NCBI GenBank assembly: GCA_946406115.1 | Contig: OX291553.1 | Span: 3,539,001 to 3,603,000, forward strand | DNA length: 64,000 nt | From: Apoda limacodes | Taxonomy: Eukaryota > Arthropoda > Insecta > Lepidoptera > Limacodidae | Direction of reading: 5' to 3' | Shown here: positions 2,251 through 59,920 of the stretch, piece after piece | How the letters are laid out: every line of letters starts with the position of its first letter | How positions within the stretch are numbered: the stretch's first letter is position 1 | The notes under the pieces: generated by a model | What the model was told of the DNA's origin: nothing | The model's input: only the letters and a program-made list of their open reading frames with translations | The model's database searches: none | Program-made: the position numbers and the translations under genes

Positions 2251-2980
2251 TCCGGAAAAGTGTCTCTTTTCAAGATGAATTATAGCAGCGGGTCTCACAA
2301 CCACGCGTCACGCTCTTATTTCCATACTTAACGCGCCAGGGATTAAATTTCTTTACGCACAAACGCACTGTGCTTCAAACTATATCATCAAACATGTTTT
2401 TGCGATAGAAAAAAATTTGTTGTAAAGTAACAAGGTTTATTTTTCCGTGAAACTGTCAAGCATCTAACTTTGTTCGTGTAAGAGATTTCTTCCGCCAATA
2501 TTCCTAGACCCCTCCGTGCTAATAAACGTAAGAGACAAAGTCCTAGCAGTAGTAAATGTCGTAAAGATCTCGGCTGATTAGTCGTTAAGATAGCGACGAG
2601 TCAGTGTGCATTGTTGCGGTAGGACGGGTGCAGTGAAGTCTTACATAATGAGGGATGAGTGGAAGTGTAGAAGGTGGAAAGGGCAGGGGATAACTTTATG
2701 AGTTTACCGTATACCTTGGTTAGGTCGCTTAGTATAAATGATGTAACGGTAGGAGGGAGATGTCTGTATTCTCTACCTTTGAAATGTTTAATCTATTTTA
2801 TTTATGCTTCACAGCAACATCACAAAGTTTTGCACTGCTTAGGTTATCTGATTGAGAAAAGTGATCCTTAAAATATTTCGAGAAGCAGAACTTTCAAAGT
2901 AATGATAATGCATTGCCATTGCAACGAAGCCTTTGAAACTTGGAGACTATTTGGTTTGGCAGATTTGATTACCGAACATA
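2251..2980. other. No recognisable gene
   Basis: The 65-codon open frame at 2674-2871 has no domain or coding signature. Nothing else was recognised. Confidence 0.35.
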
Positions 2981-3060
2981 AGTAGGTATTGCGTTGTTAG
3001 TTCGTAGCCTGCGGGACATGAGTAGGTATTGTATTGTTAGTTCGTAGCCTGTGCGTCATG
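2981..3060. repeat. 40-bp tandem duplication
   Basis: Two 40-bp units start with 'agtaggtatt' at 2981 and 3021 and share the core 'ttgttagttcgtagcctg'. They differ at a handful of positions. The pair abuts a family A repeat. Confidence 0.85.
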
Positions 3061-3086
3061 AGGCAGCGTGAATTAAAAATTCTGAT

Positions 3087-3438
3087 TGTTAGGGTTCCGT
3101 ACCTGAAAGGTAATAAACAACCCTATTACTAAGGCTTCGCTGTCCGTCCGTCCGTCCGTCCATCCGTCCGTCCGTCCGTCCATCCGTCCGTCCATCCGTC
3201 TGTCACCATCGTCTGTATCGTCATTACGTCTGTATCTCATGAACCGTTATAGTGAGACAGTTGAAATTTTCACAAAAGATGTATTTCCGTTGCCGATATA
3301 ACAAATACTAAAAAACAGTAAAAAATAAAGATTTAAGGGGGCTCCCATACAACATACCTAATTTTTTTGCTCGTTTTTGTAGATAATGGTACGGATCCCT
3401 TCGTCCGCGAGTCCGACTCGCACTTGGCCTATTTTTTA
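3087..3438 (-). repeat. Dispersed lepidopteran repeat, family A
   Basis: The minus-strand reading starts with 'ggccaagtgcgagtcggact' (head, at about 3405-3428) and 'gggatccgtacc'. It passes through 'caacggaaatacatc' and 'aaaatttcaactgtctcac' and ends at 'aacccta' with 'ggtacggaaccct' (about 3087-3105). The family is found across Lepidoptera and has no coding capacity. The tail carries an expanded CCGT microsatellite. Confidence 0.75.
3140..3202. repeat. (CCGT)n microsatellite in a family A tail
   Basis: About 15 tetranucleotides of CCGT, interrupted by CCAT. The corresponding position in other family A copies (20.3 and 54.4 kb) holds only a short 'gacggacggacag', so the repeat expanded within this copy. 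Confidence 0.9.
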
Positions 3439-3666
3439 TCTTTTAATTAAGGCACATAAGTATTCAATATACAATATTTATTTAAAATTTAGCACTTAAA
3501 CCTTCATTTGTATATTAGGAAATTCCAGGGAATTCCTGACTATTTACTACTTTATTCCCGATATAAGAAAATTGCGACTGCGCTACCCGACAACGCACTT
3601 TTACACTACGGATCCAGCGATTGTATGAAAAAATACTGACTTATAATAAAAAGTATCTTTTTTTTC

Positions 3667-6446: not shown

Positions 6447-6530
6447 CAAGAGAAAGAGATAGAGGGAGAGAAAGAGAGAGAGGGAGGGAAAGAGAGAGAG
6501 GGAGGGAAAGAGAAGGGGAAGAGAGAGAGA
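6447..6530. repeat. GA-rich low-complexity tract
   Basis: A purine-only run of about 80 bases with a loose ~20-bp internal period ('gagagagggagggaaa'). The open frame across it is a charged low-complexity artefact. It directly precedes a ~105-bp satellite array. Confidence 0.9.
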
Positions 6531-6533
6531 TTA

Positions 6534-6915
6534 AGATCTTTATTTCGAATGACAGCTGTCAAACTAGAAAGGGCCCTATATATGTAATTATTGATTTTAG
6601 ACTAGCAGTTTCTTGACAGTAGTGATAGACCTCATTAGTATCTTTATTCTGGATGACAGTTGTCAAACTAGAAATGGCTATATCTTCGAAAATATTAATA
6701 GTAGATTAGTAATTTCTTAACAGTGGTGAGAGACCTCATTAAGATCTTAATTTCGGGTGACGGTTGTCAAATTAAAAAGGGCTATTTTTTCGTAACTATT
6801 GATCTTAGACTAGCAGTTTCTTTACAGAATTAATAGATCACATCTAAATCTTTATTTCAGATGACAGGTGTCAAATTAGAAAGAGCTATGATTATATTGA
6901 TCGATCGCAGACTAG
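6534..6915 (+). repeat. Satellite array, ~105-bp unit, four diverged copies
   Basis: Unit landmarks are 'atctttatttcgaatgacag' followed by 'ctgtcaaactagaaaggg', then 'gactagcagtttcttgacag' and 'tagacctcatt'. Units start at about 6534, 6639, 6740 and 6846. Each contains the near-palindrome TGACAGCTGTCA or a variant of it. The same unit, inverted, forms the core of the TIR element at 38.7-39.9 kb. Confidence 0.85.
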
Positions 6916-6984: not shown

Positions 6985-7215
6985 TGTTGTTTTTTTTTGG
7001 CTCCCCACGGGGGAAACCTCGTCTTGGGTAGTCGCTCTCGGGGGCGTCCCTTCAACTGGTGCGAGCCTCGAACCAGCAGGTGAGTCACTGCCAGGAGGGG
7101 AGTTTCCCGTTACGCGGTTGCAGTTGCGATTAAGTGGGGGGCAAGAAGCGCCCCGGCACTCTTTAATACCCCTTTTTTAATAGAGTCCATGCTGTATCTA
7201 TGCCATCTAAGACGT
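6985..7215. mobile_element. GC-rich block, probable transposon UTR fragment
   Basis: About 230 bases with GC content far above the flanks and sharp edges: 'ctccccacgggggaaacc' at 7001 to 'tctaagacgtggcggtaact' at 7208-7227. It holds homopolymer G/C runs but no conserved protein. The style resembles UTRs of insect LINEs, but the family is not identified. Confidence 0.3.
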
Positions 7216-36060: not shown

Positions 36061-36363
36061 TTTTTAACCTTGTAAACTAAGAACTGCATCGACCGTACGA
36101 CGCGGAAGGACGAACGTATATGAAGTACGTAAAAAAGTTTAGGTTAGGGATACATAGAGAGTGTGTGTAACAAAGTATGAATAACGCAATTTACTCTCCC
36201 TGTTGTATGAATGTCATGAAGTGTCAATCATGAAATTTAAGTTCATACATCCGTTTAGAATTAAGAGCGTTTTTCTTTTTAAATACCAAACTGACTGTGC
36301 TAACCCAACCCACACTTAACGTTTTTAAAGTACAAATATCTTCACTCTTGTGAATTCGGTTAA

Positions 36364-36511
36364 AATAAACTTTGACATGCCTGTGTTTACTTGACTTACA
36401 ATAAACTTTGACATGCCTGTGTTTACTTGACTTACAATAAACTTTGACATGCCTGTGTTTACTTGACTTACAATAAACTTTGACATGCCTGTGTTTACTT
36501 GACTTACAATG
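36364..36511. repeat. 36-bp tandem repeat, four copies
   Basis: Unit 'aataaactttgacatgcctg' plus 'tgtttacttgacttac', four nearly perfect copies. The frame on the minus strand (36553-36224) stays open because 36 is divisible by 3, which makes a repetitive Lys/His/Ser peptide that I do not consider a gene. Confidence 0.95.
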
Positions 36512-37520: not shown

Positions 37521-38690
37521 AACATATTTTTTACTAAAGAGGACGATAGACGCCAGTCGAGCAAGTCAAGTATAAAAAAAAGCTAAAATCATCCTAAGCC
37601 TGCTCACATAAGGTTGAACTTCACACGTCATGTTTTATGTGGCTTACGCGTGGCGCGCTTACGTTTTTGGTTGGTTTTTCCATGTTTTTAATTTATTGAA
37701 AAAAAAAAGCGGATATAAAATTCTAGCCGATTTTCTTTTAATATAAAACAATACTTAAAAAATTAATTGAAAAGTTATTGGGTTCCCTGACAAAATAAAT
37801 ATATAAGACAAGTAAACTTAATTTTCAGCACTTTTTTGTGATTATTTATGAATGATTTTCTTATTTTTTTTAAATTTAGTTCAATTTTCTTTTCAATTTC
37901 TTCTGTTGCTAATATCTGTATTTTTTGTGATTTGTAGTCTGTACCACTTCTTCAAACTAGAACAAGTAAGATGGACTGTTTTGGGATTTTAGGGTATGTC
38001 GTCTTCTTAAGTAGATTTTTTTTACAAGTTTTAAATTTTCTTGCTCTATTAATAAGATAACGTTGAGTCTCAAACTCTTTTAGTAATTTTACCGAAACGA
38101 CCATCTCACCAACCGAGCGTCAGCCAGTCACACGCCGGCGTCAGCACCATTTATACACATTCAGCGGGCTACAATTATTTAATTCAAAACTGTAGAAATG
38201 AAATCCTGACGTCACAGGTTATTTGTACGAATATGTTGAAAATGTTAAGTGGCAGGTGACGCCACACTGCCTTCGTCATCAGTGATAAAATAATTCAATT
38301 TGTTGCGTTACCTATCATTCGTCCGTCACCGTCACCCACTACACGTCACATCACGTCACCCACGCGGCGAGACCCGCGCCGTGACTGATTAAATCTTCCC
38401 ACTACCTGACACAAAACAACCCTATTGGGAAATAACCGGTGGACAGACGTATTCGTACAATGTCTACGTCTCTTCGGGATACGCAGAAAAACATGTAGGA
38501 TTTTATGTTTTGTAGAATTTGGTACCATATAATGAAACATTTGAATTGGTGTTTTTCTTTATTTAAAGAGTTGCTTAGTGAAATAACAAAACTGTATATT
38601 GCGAAGTCAATAAACTAACTGGTTATTGATGACCTTTTGTGTGAACTGTATTTTTTTGCATTTTATTATTAATTTCCGTTAAAAATAGCG
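37521..38690. other. No recognised gene
   Basis: A patch at 38090-38180 and 38230-38400 is richer in GC ('cgtcacccactacacgtcac') without a coding frame. Confidence 0.3.
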
Positions 38691-38694
38691 TTAA

Positions 38695-39858
38695 TTGTAA
38701 ACGGCACTACCAGCGGCACTACTGGTAGTGCCGTCTACAATTGGTCTGGCAGTGCCGTTTACAATGCTTGTCAAATTTTTCAAAGTAAAATGGTTAACAA
38801 AAAATACATGTTTTTCGTGACATTATTTTGTTATATATTTTTTCTGGAATAACTGTTGGGATGATAAGGAAGATTCACGTAATACAAATAAGTCAAGTCA
38901 AAAGATCGATAGCAAAAAAAAATATTAGACTGCAATTTATAACATAGAGCCAAGAGAGATAAAAAAAACCAGTGACACTACTAGCAACAGAGTGTAGTGT
39001 TAGTGTAAATGCAAAATTTTATCTAACAAAGCTGGACAAACCGTTAATCCGTAAATCGATAATGAACAATGTTATTAACGATTGTAAATATTATAAACAT
39101 TTTATCCATTAATAACATAACTGTAAAAAATCCTTTGAATTACATTTTAATTGCTTTTTTAAATGGTTTTTTTTTTACCTTTTTTCTGGTTCGACGGCTG
39201 TCATCCAAAATGAAGACCTTGAAGAAATATATCAATCTTGTAAAGAATCTCCTAGTCTACGATTAATAGTTTTGGAGATAAAGCGGTTTTTAGTTTGACA
39301 GCTGTCATCCGAAATAAAGGTTTTGATGAGATCTGTCACTTCTGTAAAGAAACTACTAGTCTACGATGAAAGTTTACGGATAAAGCCGTTTTTAGTTTGA
39401 CAGCTGCAATCCAAAATGAAGATTTGGATGAGATCTATCACTTCTGTAAAGAAACTTCTAGTCTACGATCAAAAGTTACGGAGATAAAGCCGTTTCTAGT
39501 TTGATAGCTGTCATCAAAAATGTAGATCTTGATGAGATCTAAAACTTTTGTAAAAAACTCCTAGTGTACGATTAATAGTTTTGGAGATAAGCTTTTTCTA
39601 TTTTGACAGCTGTCATCCGCAACGAATCTTGATGAGATATATCTCTTCTATGAAGAAACTAGTCTATGTTAAATAGTTTCGGAGATATAACCATTCTAAA
39701 GCTTATAAAATTCTGCGGTCTAAGATATTTATATCCTTGTTTGTATTTTTGTAAACGATTGTACCTACTTTGACAGATCTGACAATCATTGTAAACAGCA
39801 CTACCAGATCTATTGTAAACGGCACTACCAGTAGTGCCGCTGGTAGTGCCGTTTACAA
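38695..39858. mobile_element. 1,164-bp TIR element with satellite core
   Basis: Left and right TIRs of about 92 bases correspond with roughly nine mismatches, the first 40 bases being the same. They start 'ttgtaaacggcactaccagc'. TAA directly abuts both ends (38692-38694 and 39859-39861), a PIF/Harbinger-type 3-bp duplication. Each TIR is itself palindromic ('ggcactaccag' ... 'ctggtagtgcc') and repeats 'cggcactacca' internally, giving cruciform potential. There is no transposase frame. The core is a five-unit array of a ~103-bp satellite. Confidence 0.85.
39190..39700 (-). repeat. Satellite array, ~103-bp unit, five copies
   Basis: The landmark 'gacagctgtcatcc' or a variant lies at 39193, 39297, 39399, 39503 and 39605, a spacing of 102-104 bases. 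The reverse complement of a unit ('gactagtagtttctttacag', 'tttatttcggatgacagctg') matches the unit of the 6534-6915 array. Both the spacing and the palindromic CAGCTG core are kept. Confidence 0.9.
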
Positions 39859-40123
39859 TAAACGAAAAATAGAATAGCAGCCACCTTGCAAAGTACACTA
39901 TCGTTCGGTACCTATCCGGCGGCCTATAAGAAATCCTTTATTTTGATAATAGAGGGCCCTTTACCTTTAAATCAACTCAAAAATTTAGTAGGTATTTTCT
40001 GTATCATAAATAGCGCAGTCAAAAATATACAATTTTATCTATGACGTGTATTCCCGAACGGCCTTCGACAGTTTCTTTACTTAAATATACTAAAACGAAA
40101 ATCGAAAACAAAGCTTTTTTGCG

Positions 40124-50179: not shown

Positions 50180-52150
50180 ATAATAGCTTATTCCTACAAG
50201 GTCTTCGCTCGTCAGAACGCGAGGCAGACACCAAAAAACCGGTTCGTGGTCTTCTCACATTTCTCCCTTACGGGGAAATGGGGCAACTGTCTTTGGGCTT
50301 TGCCCTTCTGCAGTGGTAGTCTTCGCTACTTTGCACCGAAAGTAGGTGTCTGGGGGTTGACTTATGTCAAATTGGTCCTCTTTGCTTGGTGTTGGTGTTT
50401 ACTTGTCTTCTACTTTGACTACCAGGTCTCGAGGATACCCCAAGCCCTCGGGCGGCCGAGCGTGAAGCGGCGCCAGTCCTCTTATATGCGGCCAGACCGA
50501 GTTATCTACCTGCGCGAACATTCTCGTGGCCAACCTTCCGACAAACTCTGCAATGGTCTCGACGCGGAGGTCTCTCGCTAACGTGGAGTTCCTTACGTAT
50601 CTTGGTGCACCGGCTATGGTGCGTAGGCTGCGGTTTTGGGTCTTTTGTAACCGCTGGCGTTGGGACGTGCTGGCAAGCGCATACCAAGCCGGTGCGGCGT
50701 ACGTGAGGCGGGGTCTTAGATACAATTTGAAGATCCCGACTTTCACACGAAGCGGAAGGCGAGCTGTGAGTACCGGTTGAAGGAGGGCCTGTGCCGCTCT
50801 CGTCTTTCCGATCACGGCTGTGATATGCTTCCTCATGGATAGAAGGCGGTCGATTTCTACCCCTAGGTAGGTGGCCTCGGTAGTCCATTCGATGACCTGT
50901 CCATGGAACTGTAGCGGCGGTATTTTAGTATAACCCCGGAGGAGGATGGCTTGCGTCTTCCCGACGTTTACCGACAACTTCCACTTGGCTAGCCATTCTG
51001 GCAGGAGGTCTAGGCATCTCTGCATTTTGATGCGAGCGTGGGCTGCGGTGATAGAGCTGGTGATGAACGCCGCATCGTCAGCGTACAGGGCCAGTTCTGC
51101 TTCAGAGGTTTTTGGGAAGTCGTCGGTATATCTGCCATAACAAGCCGGTGAGAGACAGCTCCCCTGGGGTACACCTGCACTAATTTGGCGCTCTTCTGAT
51201 AGCGCGTCCTCTACTCTCACTCTGAATCGTCGCTGTTCTAAGAAGGAAGCGACGACTTTTGAGATCCTTCTCGGTAGCGAGGATGTGGTCAGCTTGAACA
51301 GAAGTCCCTGGTGCCACACCCTGTCAAAAGCCTTCTCCATGTCCAGGAATACTGCAACAGCGTGCTCGTTCTTGTTTAGGGCTACTGCTATGTGGTGCAG
51401 TACCCTTGACAGCTGGAGAGTTGTGGAGTGTTCAGCGCGAAATCCGAATTGCTCCTGTCTGGGTACGATGTGCGGACTCATGTGCCTTAACAGGAGTTTT
51501 TCAAACACCTTCGAGATATTCGAAAGGAGCGTGACGGGCCGATAGCTTCCTGGCTTCAGTATATTTTTCCCAGGTTTTGGGAGCATGATCACATGCCCTG
51601 TCTTCCACAAGGTGGGAAAGTGCCCCGTGCGCATGATCCCATTGAACAGGCGTGTCAACGCCGCTATAGTTCTGGGAGGAAGGTGACGTAGCGCCGTGTT
51701 TGTAACCCGGTCAGCGCCTGGGGCTTTTCGGGGCACTGATCTTCTTATTTCCCGCTCCACTTGGCTCGGTGAGAAAACCACTGGGTCTTCGTCGGGAGCT
51801 ATCGGTCGGGCGAAGTAGTCTCGAAGGTGTTGCTCCACTAGCTCGGTATGAGCATGGTCAGTGGTCGGATTTAGCTGAAACTGTTCCTCCAGGTGTGTGG
51901 CAAAGATTTCTGCCCGGTCTTCTGCTCTATATCTCGGCGTCCCATCCGTTGCGAGAAGTGGACGCACTGGAGCTTGCCCTTTTGTCATTTGACGACAAAG
52001 ACGGTGTATGCCAGTCCAGTCGTCACTTATGGTAGCGAGGTGGCGCTCCCAGCTTTCGGTTCGGTGTTCATTAATCAGCTTCTTGATGTGGTCCTGCATT
52101 TTGTTTGGGCGGGTCTAAAACCGGAATCCCTAGGCCACCACCATGGCTAC
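50170..52150 (-). mobile_element. Jockey-type LINE, 5'-truncated, RT intact
   Basis: The element runs right to left: a truncated 5' edge near 52100-52150, an uninterrupted reverse transcriptase, then a GC-richer 3' UTR (50170-50398). No endonuclease or gag-like ORF remains. The GC content of the whole block contrasts sharply with the flanks. I could not see a long T-run at the left edge, so the 3' boundary is approximate. Confidence 0.8.
50399..52099 (-). CDS. LINE reverse transcriptase, 566 aa, open
   Basis: RNA-dependent DNA polymerase of a non-LTR retrotransposon, which copies its RNA at a nicked target site. Motifs in order: 'RKAPGAD' (124-130), 'LPKPGK' (173-178), 'SYRPVTLL' (185-192), 'FGFR' (218-221), motif A 'FLDMEKAFDRVWH' (251-263), 'AGVPQGSCLSP' (308-318) and the catalytic 'YADD' (339-342). 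The thumb and C-terminal domain follow, to a natural stop. All catalytic Asp residues are present and no stop or frameshift occurs, unlike every other LINE in this window. The upstream endonuclease is missing; an in-frame TAG precedes the ATG by five codons. The ATG at 52099 is only the first Met after truncation, not the true start. The sequence suits the Jockey clade. It is unlikely to move without the endonuclease. Confidence 0.9.
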   Translation of the reverse strand: MQDHIKKLINEHRTESWERHLATISDDWTGIHRLCRQMTKGQAPVRPLLATDGTPRYRAEDRAEIFATHLEEQFQLNPTTDHAHTELVEQHLRDYFARPIAPDEDPVVFSPSQVEREIRRSVPRKAPGADRVTNTALRHLPPRTIAALTRLFNGIMRTGHFPTLWKTGHVIMLPKPGKNILKPGSYRPVTLLSNISKVFEKLLLRHMSPHIVPRQEQFGFRAEHSTTLQLSRVLHHIAVALNKNEHAVAVFLDMEKAFDRVWHQGLLFKLTTSSLPRRISKVVASFLEQRRFRVRVEDALSEERQISAGVPQGSCLSPACYGRYTDDFPKTSEAELALYADDAAFITSSITAAHARIKMQRCLDLLPEWLAKWKLSVNVGKTQAILLRGYTKIPPLQFHGQVIEWTTEATYLGVEIDRLLSMRKHITAVIGKTRAAQALLQPVLTARLPLRVKVGIFKLYLRPRLTYAAPAWYALASTSQRQRLQKTQNRSLRTIAGAPRYVRNSTLARDLRVETIAEFVGRLATRMFAQVDNSVWPHIRGLAPLHARPPEGLGYPRDLVVKVEDK

Positions 52151-57917: not shown

Positions 57918-58023
57918 GGTGGTCGGTGGTTAGCTGCTGTCTGCGCGGCGGTGGTTAGCTGCTGTCTGCGCGGCGGTGGTTAGCTGCTGTCTGCGCGGCG
58001 GTGGTTAGCTGCTGTCTGCGCGG
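57918..58023. repeat. 25-bp tandem repeat, four copies
   Basis: Unit 'ggtggttagctgctgtctgc' plus 'gcggc'; 'tagctgctgt' at 57931, 57956, 57981 and 58006. The copies look identical, so expansion is recent. Confidence 0.95.
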
Positions 58024-58094
58024 CCAATTTCAAATGGAACTTAAAAAAAACCTTATTTCAAGTATAGGATACGTGTGTGATTTTATTATAGTTC

Positions 58095-59125: not shown

Positions 59126-59510
59126 TATGTTTTCATCAATTTATAGTTTATAATTTAATCCCATATAAACAAATGAATACAGACGGATAGACTATTGAGT
59201 TTTGATGCTTTATATTTTTTAATTCTCAGTCAACTTATAAGACGTAATGTTCTAAAATGGTTTTTCTTCTACTTTCTAATCTTATCTGTTTTTTTTGTAA
59301 AATAATTATTCAAAAAATTTATAGTCTTAAAAATGATTTTTTTTTGTTGAAATTTCTCTTAAAAATTATGAAACCTGAAGCAAACTAATGAATGTTGCTT
59401 TGTCGCCGGGCTCTGAGCTGTATTTAAAGTTTCGAGTCTCTAGTTTATCGGGAAGTTCAATCCAAGTGCAAAATTTGAAGACATAGGCTAGTCGGAAGCC
59501 TGTTGTTCCC
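59126..59510. other. No recognised gene
   Basis: Nothing supported. Confidence 0.35.
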
Positions 59511-59920
59511 GTCTCGCCACGCACCTTCCCTCACTACTGCTCAATAGACGTCTCGCCACGCACCTTTTCACACGATAGCTCTATCTAGACGTCTCGCCAC
59601 GCACCTTCCCTTATTATTGCTCTGTCTAGGCGTCTCGCCACGCACCTTTTCACACGATAGCTCTGTCTAGACGTCTCGCCACGCACCTTCCCTCACTATT
59701 GCTCTGTCTAGGCGTCTCGTGACGCACCTTTTCACACGATAGCTCTGTCTAGACGTCTCGCCACACACATTACCTCACTATTGCTCTGTCTCGGCGTCTT
59801 GCCACGCTCCTTTTCACACGATAGCTCTGTCTAGACGTCTCGCCACGCACCTTCCCTCACTATTGCTCTGTCTAGACGTCTCGCCACCCACCGTTCCTCA
59901 CTATTGCTCTGTCTAGACGT
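59511..59920. repeat. 41-bp minisatellite with alternating A/B units
   Basis: Ten units begin 'gtctcgccacgcacctt' or a variant at 59511, 59550, 59591, 59632, 59673, 59714, 59755, 59796, 59837 and 59878. Type A continues 'ccctcactattgctctgtct' and type B 'ttcacacgatagctctgtct'. The order is A-B-A-B-A-B-A-B-A-A, so amplification occurred mostly as an 82-bp dimer. Confidence 0.9.

Follow-up and report, generated by a model that had tools for sequence, protein, structure and literature searches.

A satellite array inside a probable foldback-like, non-autonomous DNA transposon of Apoda limacodes

At one locus of the Apoda limacodes genome, satellite units stand in tandem between inverted repeats. 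Does a transposon at this locus carry the satellite with it when it moves, or do two repeats lie together by accident? The window is the whole stretch of 64,000 nucleotides that was analysed (C16:3539001-3603000), and an earlier note made from its letters alone had proposed a TIR transposon acting as a mobile carrier of the satellite. We compared the window with the genome of 800 Mb in 31 contigs. With a probability of roughly 0.9, the element is a non-autonomous, foldback-like cut-and-paste DNA transposon that moves a satellite array as one unit.

Borders and structure of the element

The features at the locus are as follows.

38681..38688, plus strand: target-site duplication, left copy AAAAATAG, identical to 39865-39872 and found by end pairing
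38689..39864, plus strand: complete non-coding transposon copy, 1176 bp, with borders from comparison with other copies
38689..38787, plus strand: left terminal inverted repeat, hairpin-folding; a 19-mer motif occurs in it three times (one plus, two minus)
38788..38942, plus strand: left-arm spacer, also present in the left arm of L045, a relative of 3471 bp
38943..39058, plus strand: stretch between two L045-matching blocks (element positions 255-370), the site of the left array and middle of L045 that are missing here
39059..39182, plus strand: inner flank of the right array; element 371 onward corresponds to L045 element 2451 onward
39183..39693, plus strand: satellite array of five ~103-bp units, from Tandem Repeats Finder and profile matches
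39694..39765, plus strand: right-arm spacer from the array to the terminal inverted repeat; the query 39691-39770 matches beside the arrays of other copies
39766..39864, minus strand: right terminal inverted repeat, hairpin z -8.5; the motif occurs in it three times (two plus, one minus)
39865..39872, plus strand: target-site duplication, right copy AAAAATAG, identical to 38681-38688

Borders: The earlier note had set the borders at 38695 and 39858 and had taken TAA on both sides for duplications. Both statements had to be revised. In many other copies, CGTTTA precedes and TAAACG follows this shorter border. As the ends of other copies continue with CGTTTA, the TAA/TTA lies inside the inverted repeat and is part of a conserved end; the duplication is one of 8 bp. 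The true borders are 38689 and 39864, six bases further out at each end. The inverted repeat ends of the element are CGTTTATTG...CAATAAACG, with one base changed at the left end in the window (CGTTAATTG instead of CGTTTATTG). Tabulated over 48 end-like sequences, among them inner motif copies that start with GATCTA or CAATCA, the six end places read C (38 sequences), G (30), T (40), T (40), T (38) and A (46); outside, the bases are mixed and AT-rich. The case calls for caution: a 3-bp "duplication" inferred from a single copy turned out to be the transposon end.

Target-site duplication: When lengths of 2-12 were tried, 8 alone gave matching flanks, in the window copy, L045 and L049. Nine complete copies have duplications. 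These agree at 8/8 positions in six copies (window, L045 and L049, as well as L022 with TTTATCAC, L052 with CAAAATAA and L055 with CTTTTTTC) and at 7/8 in three (L037, L051 and L056). Among random pairs, an exact 8-bp match occurred in 4 of 200000 (second estimate 6.5e-05), and a match at 7 of 8 or better at 0.00085 per pair. The pairing script listed only end pairs with at most two mismatches in the 8-bp flanks; hence, matching flanks were a condition for the selection of the window copy, L045, L049 and L037. The L022 duplication was first spotted by eye and then checked, and L051, L052, L055 and L056 were chosen for paired ends before their flanks were seen. L046, with two ends 79 bp apart, is below the 200-bp floor of the script and was not counted as a copy (flanks 6/8 alike, by eye). 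The end pair C10:12567174 + 12568611, among the matches listed, was left out of the copy count. L053, chosen for two 19-mer places 2.4 kb apart, holds the ends of two different copies and has no duplication. With joined flanks as the query, the fetched loci and the window gave self-matches only and no empty site.

Terminal inverted repeats: The ends had been described as TIRs of ~92 bp. The inverted arrangement stands, and the length has to be extended, as 38689-38787 and 39766-39864 are each 99 nt long and 90% complementary to each other. The palindromic structure noticed inside each of them is confirmed. With up to three mismatches allowed, the window has six copies of the 19-mer TTGTAAACGGCACTACCAG, all located in the ends (three in each), versus 0 in 100 shuffles; the copies in the left end start at 38695, 38722 and 38746. 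These copies lie in mixed orientation, and the ends fold into hairpins with z = -8.8 (left) and -8.5 (right); equally stable shuffles were 0/200 for each.

Interior: The five ~103-bp satellite units reported between the TIRs were recovered by both methods used. Tandem Repeats Finder gave a period of 104 with 4.9 copies at 39183-39687, and the profile search of the window gave five unit matches at 39186-39693. The element was also rightly described as having no coding capacity, as its longest stop-free stretch of 67 aa is not above that of shuffles (mean 72.6 aa, 200 single-base shuffles). With terminal inverted repeats that have internal repeats and are able to fold back, the element has the build of a foldback transposon; L045 and L051, with oppositely oriented satellite arrays in their arms, agree with this. 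It is also short, non-coding and repeated, with inverted ends and duplications, as is characteristic of MITEs and other non-autonomous elements.

Family copies and the link between satellite and ends

Copy number: The ends are highly repeated. In the genome, the 19-mer motif has 1009 matches at up to two mismatches versus 3 for the reversed control, and the outer-end 25-mer has 232 at up to one mismatch versus 0. A CC variant of the outer end has 183 matches versus 0 for the control and overlaps the set of 232 through the allowed mismatch. Most end sequences are CGTTTATTG or CCTTTATTG. Single-copy TIRs, which the earlier note had named as grounds against its reading, are thus not what the genome contains. 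The viral contigs gave 0 exact matches to the end motif (two forms) or to a satellite 20-mer.

Copies and subfamilies: Among the matches listed were 53 exact 19-mer places, and 20 ten-kilobase loci were taken from contigs C1 to C16. C3:12020416 and C13:3167085/3167695 are represented by 3-kb loci rather than 10-kb ones, and L026-L028 are the window's own copy. The complete copies measure 162 bp (L052, ends only), 703 (L022), 1176 (window), 1197 (L051), 1274 (L049), 1295 (L056), 1354 (L055), 2230 (L037) and 3471 bp (L045). Two subfamilies can be distinguished by eye: one like the window copy and L045, with GG in the motif, and one like L049 and L051, with mostly AG in the motif and often CC at the left end. 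The full-length satellite units of L049, L050 and L031 form a clade of their own (support 95/91).

Some neighbouring structures were seen in passing. Three outer ends among the matches listed (C3:22636683, 22648947 and 22660664) lie on one strand about 12 kb apart, which looks as if a segment with a copy had been tandemly repeated. In L006/L007/L036 (C3 ~12020416-12028525), a family copy is apparently split by an insertion of ~8 kb with ends of its own (GGGGCTCTATTGCC...), and an open frame of L036 resembles a Harbinger-type transposase by eye. Judged by eye, L037 has a reverse-transcriptase-like frame, and L045 contains other dispersed repeats in its middle.

Association: In the 20 loci, chosen by the exact 19-mer alone, the satellite adjoins the anchor end in ten (L032, L034, L038, L040, L041, L045, L047, L048, L049 and L050). 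Ends stand on both sides of it in five of these (L038, L041, L045, L047 and L049), so that TIRs bracket the satellite elsewhere as well, a point on which the earlier note had made its reading depend. The satellite is absent from nine loci (L033, L035, L036, L037, L039, L042, L043, L044 and L046). In the remaining locus, L031, 4.7 kb separate the array from the anchor end, and the array stands behind another left end, which became visible once the neighbouring L054 was added; a right end for this array was looked for in the locus and L054 and not found. As nine end loci are free of the satellite and the array of a tenth is tied to another end, the satellite is not obligatory. Of 14 arrays, which are not independent because the arrays of one copy were counted apart, 12 lie within 500 bp of an end, versus 26% when positions in these loci are drawn at random. 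Seven of the nine complete copies with duplications have the satellite inside, L052 and L037 being the ones without it.

Junction: Between the array and the inner border of the end-profile match lie 44-50 bp in L034, L040, L041, L045, L047 and L048; in the window copy, the distance is 38 bp. The spacer query 39691-39770 matches beside the array in the same six loci (77-97% identity) and in L053 (93%). In the unit tree, calculated from those 50 of 67 unit matches that cover at least 86 profile positions, the outermost units of the window (39599-39693), L045, L041, L048 and L040, which stand beside the right end, form one clade (support 100/99); the joint support threshold was reached by 4 of 47 inner branches. 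Because these copies share both the array-to-end junction and the clade of the outermost unit, the array travels with the element, and it was therefore in place before these copies dispersed. The mean unit identity is 83.1% within an array (84 pairs), 84.1% between the arms of one copy (29 pairs) and 80.3% between copies (971 pairs). With highly repeated ends, 8-bp duplications and satellite beside the anchor end in half of the loci, the proposal of a mobile carrier is supported.

Two opposite arrays: L045 has minus-strand units in its left arm and plus-strand units in its right arm, and units in both orientations also occur in L040, L041, L047, L049, L051 and L056. Among the satellite-bearing complete copies, both orientations are present in L045, L049, L051 and L056, and one orientation in the window copy, L022 and L055. 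The arms of L045 are inverted to each other, with 83% identity in the end and 84.6% in the array. The spacer between end and array is weakly alike across its arms, where 1 of 1000 shuffles scored as well; in the window copy, 55 of 1000 did. A single unbroken inverted repeat along the whole arm does not follow from these values. BLAST aligns element positions 1-254 of the window with L045 element 1-278 at 84%, and element 371 onward with L045 element 2451-3471 at 83.8% identity over 636 columns, array included. Relative to L045, the window copy is without the left array and the middle. From these alignments, the window copy is best read as a deletion form that lost one array. Loss is the simpler reading, as two-orientation forms occur in both subfamilies. 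As three of the seven copies have one orientation, the two-array form does not hold throughout, and the case for it as the earlier state is one of parsimony.

Mechanism, alternatives and known systems

Mechanism: A putative transposase encoded elsewhere in the genome would recognize the motif copies in the ends, excise the element and reinsert it with an 8-bp stagger. Each insertion would thereby also plant a short satellite array, which may later lengthen or shorten as units slip or exchange unequally. Shorter forms would arise by internal deletion. The window copy would thus descend from a two-array ancestor whose left array and middle were lost, and L052, 162 bp long and without any satellite, would be another short form of this kind. 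In the frames of L045 and the fetched loci, neither a transposase of these ends nor an autonomous copy was found, which limits mobilization in trans to an inference. The six frames of L045 gave 0 Pfam families at E 0.01. By eye, some open frames of the fetched loci resemble reverse transcriptases or transposases of nested elements, and on this inspection none could be assigned to the CGTTTA/CCTTTA ends.

Class: hAT ends typically carry a terminal CA/TA dinucleotide, and the ends of the window family are mostly CG/CC. P and Merlin elements also make 8-bp duplications, and the target duplication of Galileo is 7 bp. The 8-bp duplication of the nine copies (six exact, three with one mismatch) is therefore not specific to hAT. 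The duplications of hAT are usually 8 bp, and those of Zisupton are also 8 bp (PMC12730594, accessible part). We consider it improbable that the CGTTTA/CCTTTA ends, the palindromic modules and the 8-bp duplication denote a transposase lineage outside the described superfamilies, which would retain the satellite in each arm as a functional part for recognition or folding and at the same time seed free arrays around the genome.

Alternatives: An accidental association, in which a small transposon hit a satellite array independently or two unrelated repeats are adjacent, would agree with the nine of 20 end-motif loci without satellite and with the array without ends at 6530-6879. The near-constant junction, the outermost unit common to five copies and the satellite inside most complete copies with duplications make such an accident very unlikely. 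PIF/Harbinger elements make a 3-bp TWA duplication, and TAA indeed stands on either side of the shorter 19-mer border, as would be expected for a member of this group with a TAA duplication. We nevertheless give this assignment hardly any credence, as the TAA belongs to the conserved end in other copies and the flanks outside this TAA-containing end agree over 8 bp exactly rather than 3 in the window copy, L045 and L049, with 8-bp duplications in nine copies. To our knowledge, Helitrons make neither inverted ends nor target duplications. The inverted ends at both sides and the 8-bp duplications found here leave practically no chance for a carrier of the Helitron type with tandem repeats inside, such as occurs in oyster and Drosophila, although central satellite-like arrays are often carried by Helitrons (PMC12628747, accessible part).

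A further alternative concerns the origin of the satellite and is compatible with a foldback transposon that now carries it. A free genomic satellite may have existed first and then have been taken up by the transposon. The satellite has no similarity to the window arms beyond that of shuffles, unlike the origin proposed for Tetris repeats, and the array without ends at 6530-6879 has units that are 73% like other units. On the other hand, both subfamilies (window/L045 and L049/L051) already carry the satellite, so a capture would have to be old, and the array without ends may itself be a decayed copy. We regard capture as possible, at somewhat less than an even chance. That the satellite arose from the ends of the element itself was also considered and is unsupported, as the comparison of the satellite with the arms of the window copy gave no similarity above shuffles (122/500 and 407/500 shuffles score as well). 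A role of the satellite in transposase binding, by analogy with Galileo, is possible; as units and window arms share nothing beyond shuffles, it is without sequence support.

Known systems: The following comparisons hold for the accessible parts of the cited papers. Tetris of Drosophila virilis is a non-autonomous foldback transposon with no conserved open frame and a repeat unit of ~220 bp, which its authors suggest arose from the end sequence (PMC4079207). By description, the window family is like Tetris in being non-autonomous, having no conserved frame and having inverted ends that hold internal tandem repeats, and its 8-bp duplication falls within the 8-10 bp of Tetris (PMC4079207). Tetris also has a related small element with its ends, DAIBAM, and its repeats also form longer arrays (PMC4079207). 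The differences are the unit of ~103 bp here, the end-derived repeat, which is not seen here, and the kilobase-size arrays, which are shown for Tetris and not for the window family (PMC4079207). In Galileo, a foldback-like element of the P superfamily in Drosophila, the transposase domain binds the ends at sites within their internal tandem repeats (PMC3688188). The long inverted ends with internal tandem repeats are alike, and several recognition sites per end are likely in the window family too; domain and binding sites were tested for Galileo, whereas binding is inferred here (PMC3688188).

Satellite-bearing MITEs include miDNA4 and Xstir of Xenopus and tandem-repeat MITEs of the clam Donax (PMC12628747). 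They too are short and non-coding, with inverted repeats around satellite units that vary in number; their array is internal, whereas several copies of the window family have units in both orientations and ends of palindromic modules (PMC12628747). Foldback and inverted-repeat elements with internal satellite units are in part tabulated, and the mobile microsatellites of Lepidoptera are MITEs with (GTCY)n (PMC9659126). The latter are also small transposons carrying a tandem repeat in Lepidoptera, with a 4-base microsatellite in contrast to a ~103-bp satellite (PMC9659126). In the titles and opening lines of abstracts among the listed open papers on Lepidoptera, we met no description of the window family, and its end and satellite letters were absent from the open papers searched by text. 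The family is a further example of a kind established from flies, frogs and clams.

The family is a clear, countable example of a satellite spread by a cut-and-paste element. Many end copies and two subfamilies are present in a single 31-contig assembly, the array-to-end junction is shared, and the forms range from arrays in two orientations through a single orientation to no satellite at all. It is hence suited to testing whether free arrays descend from element-borne ones or the reverse.

A second array and other repeats in the window

The window contains one more array.

6530..6879 (to about 6920), minus strand: another array of this satellite, ~3.4 units, related to the element but lying outside it

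Its units are ~73-76% identical to the element-borne satellite, with a mean of 73.3% against all other units (141 pairs). The statement that the satellite also exists outside the element thus holds within the window for this one array, which has no recognizable ends: none were found around 6530-6879, and window-wide end-profile matches beyond the element are at chance level. The flanks of the fetched copies did not match those of the array, and the non-satellite parts of L051 had no match around it. Flank matches nearby were a dispersed repeat at ~7000-7170, one 24-base match and simple GA repeats. The array may be a decayed copy, a free array seeded by an element, a source of the satellite or a carrier of another family. 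It adjoins a GA-rich simple repeat.

Several other repeats and one frame were recorded in the window. A GTCC tetranucleotide run of 15.8 copies at 3142-3204 resembles the (GTCY)n of lepidopteran MITEs (PMC9659126, accessible part). At 36360-36510, there is a 36-bp tandem repeat of 4.2 copies at 99%, whose unit contains TTACAATAAAC, resembling the transposon end sequence TTTACAATAAACG. A minus-strand open frame of 571 aa at 50399-52114 is non-LTR reverse transcriptase-like by eye. Four copies of a 25-bp tandem repeat at 57924-58024 are 100% identical, and a GC-rich tandem array at 59510-59920 is built of 41/82-bp units, the 41-bp one in ~10 copies, where the GC skew is -0.17.
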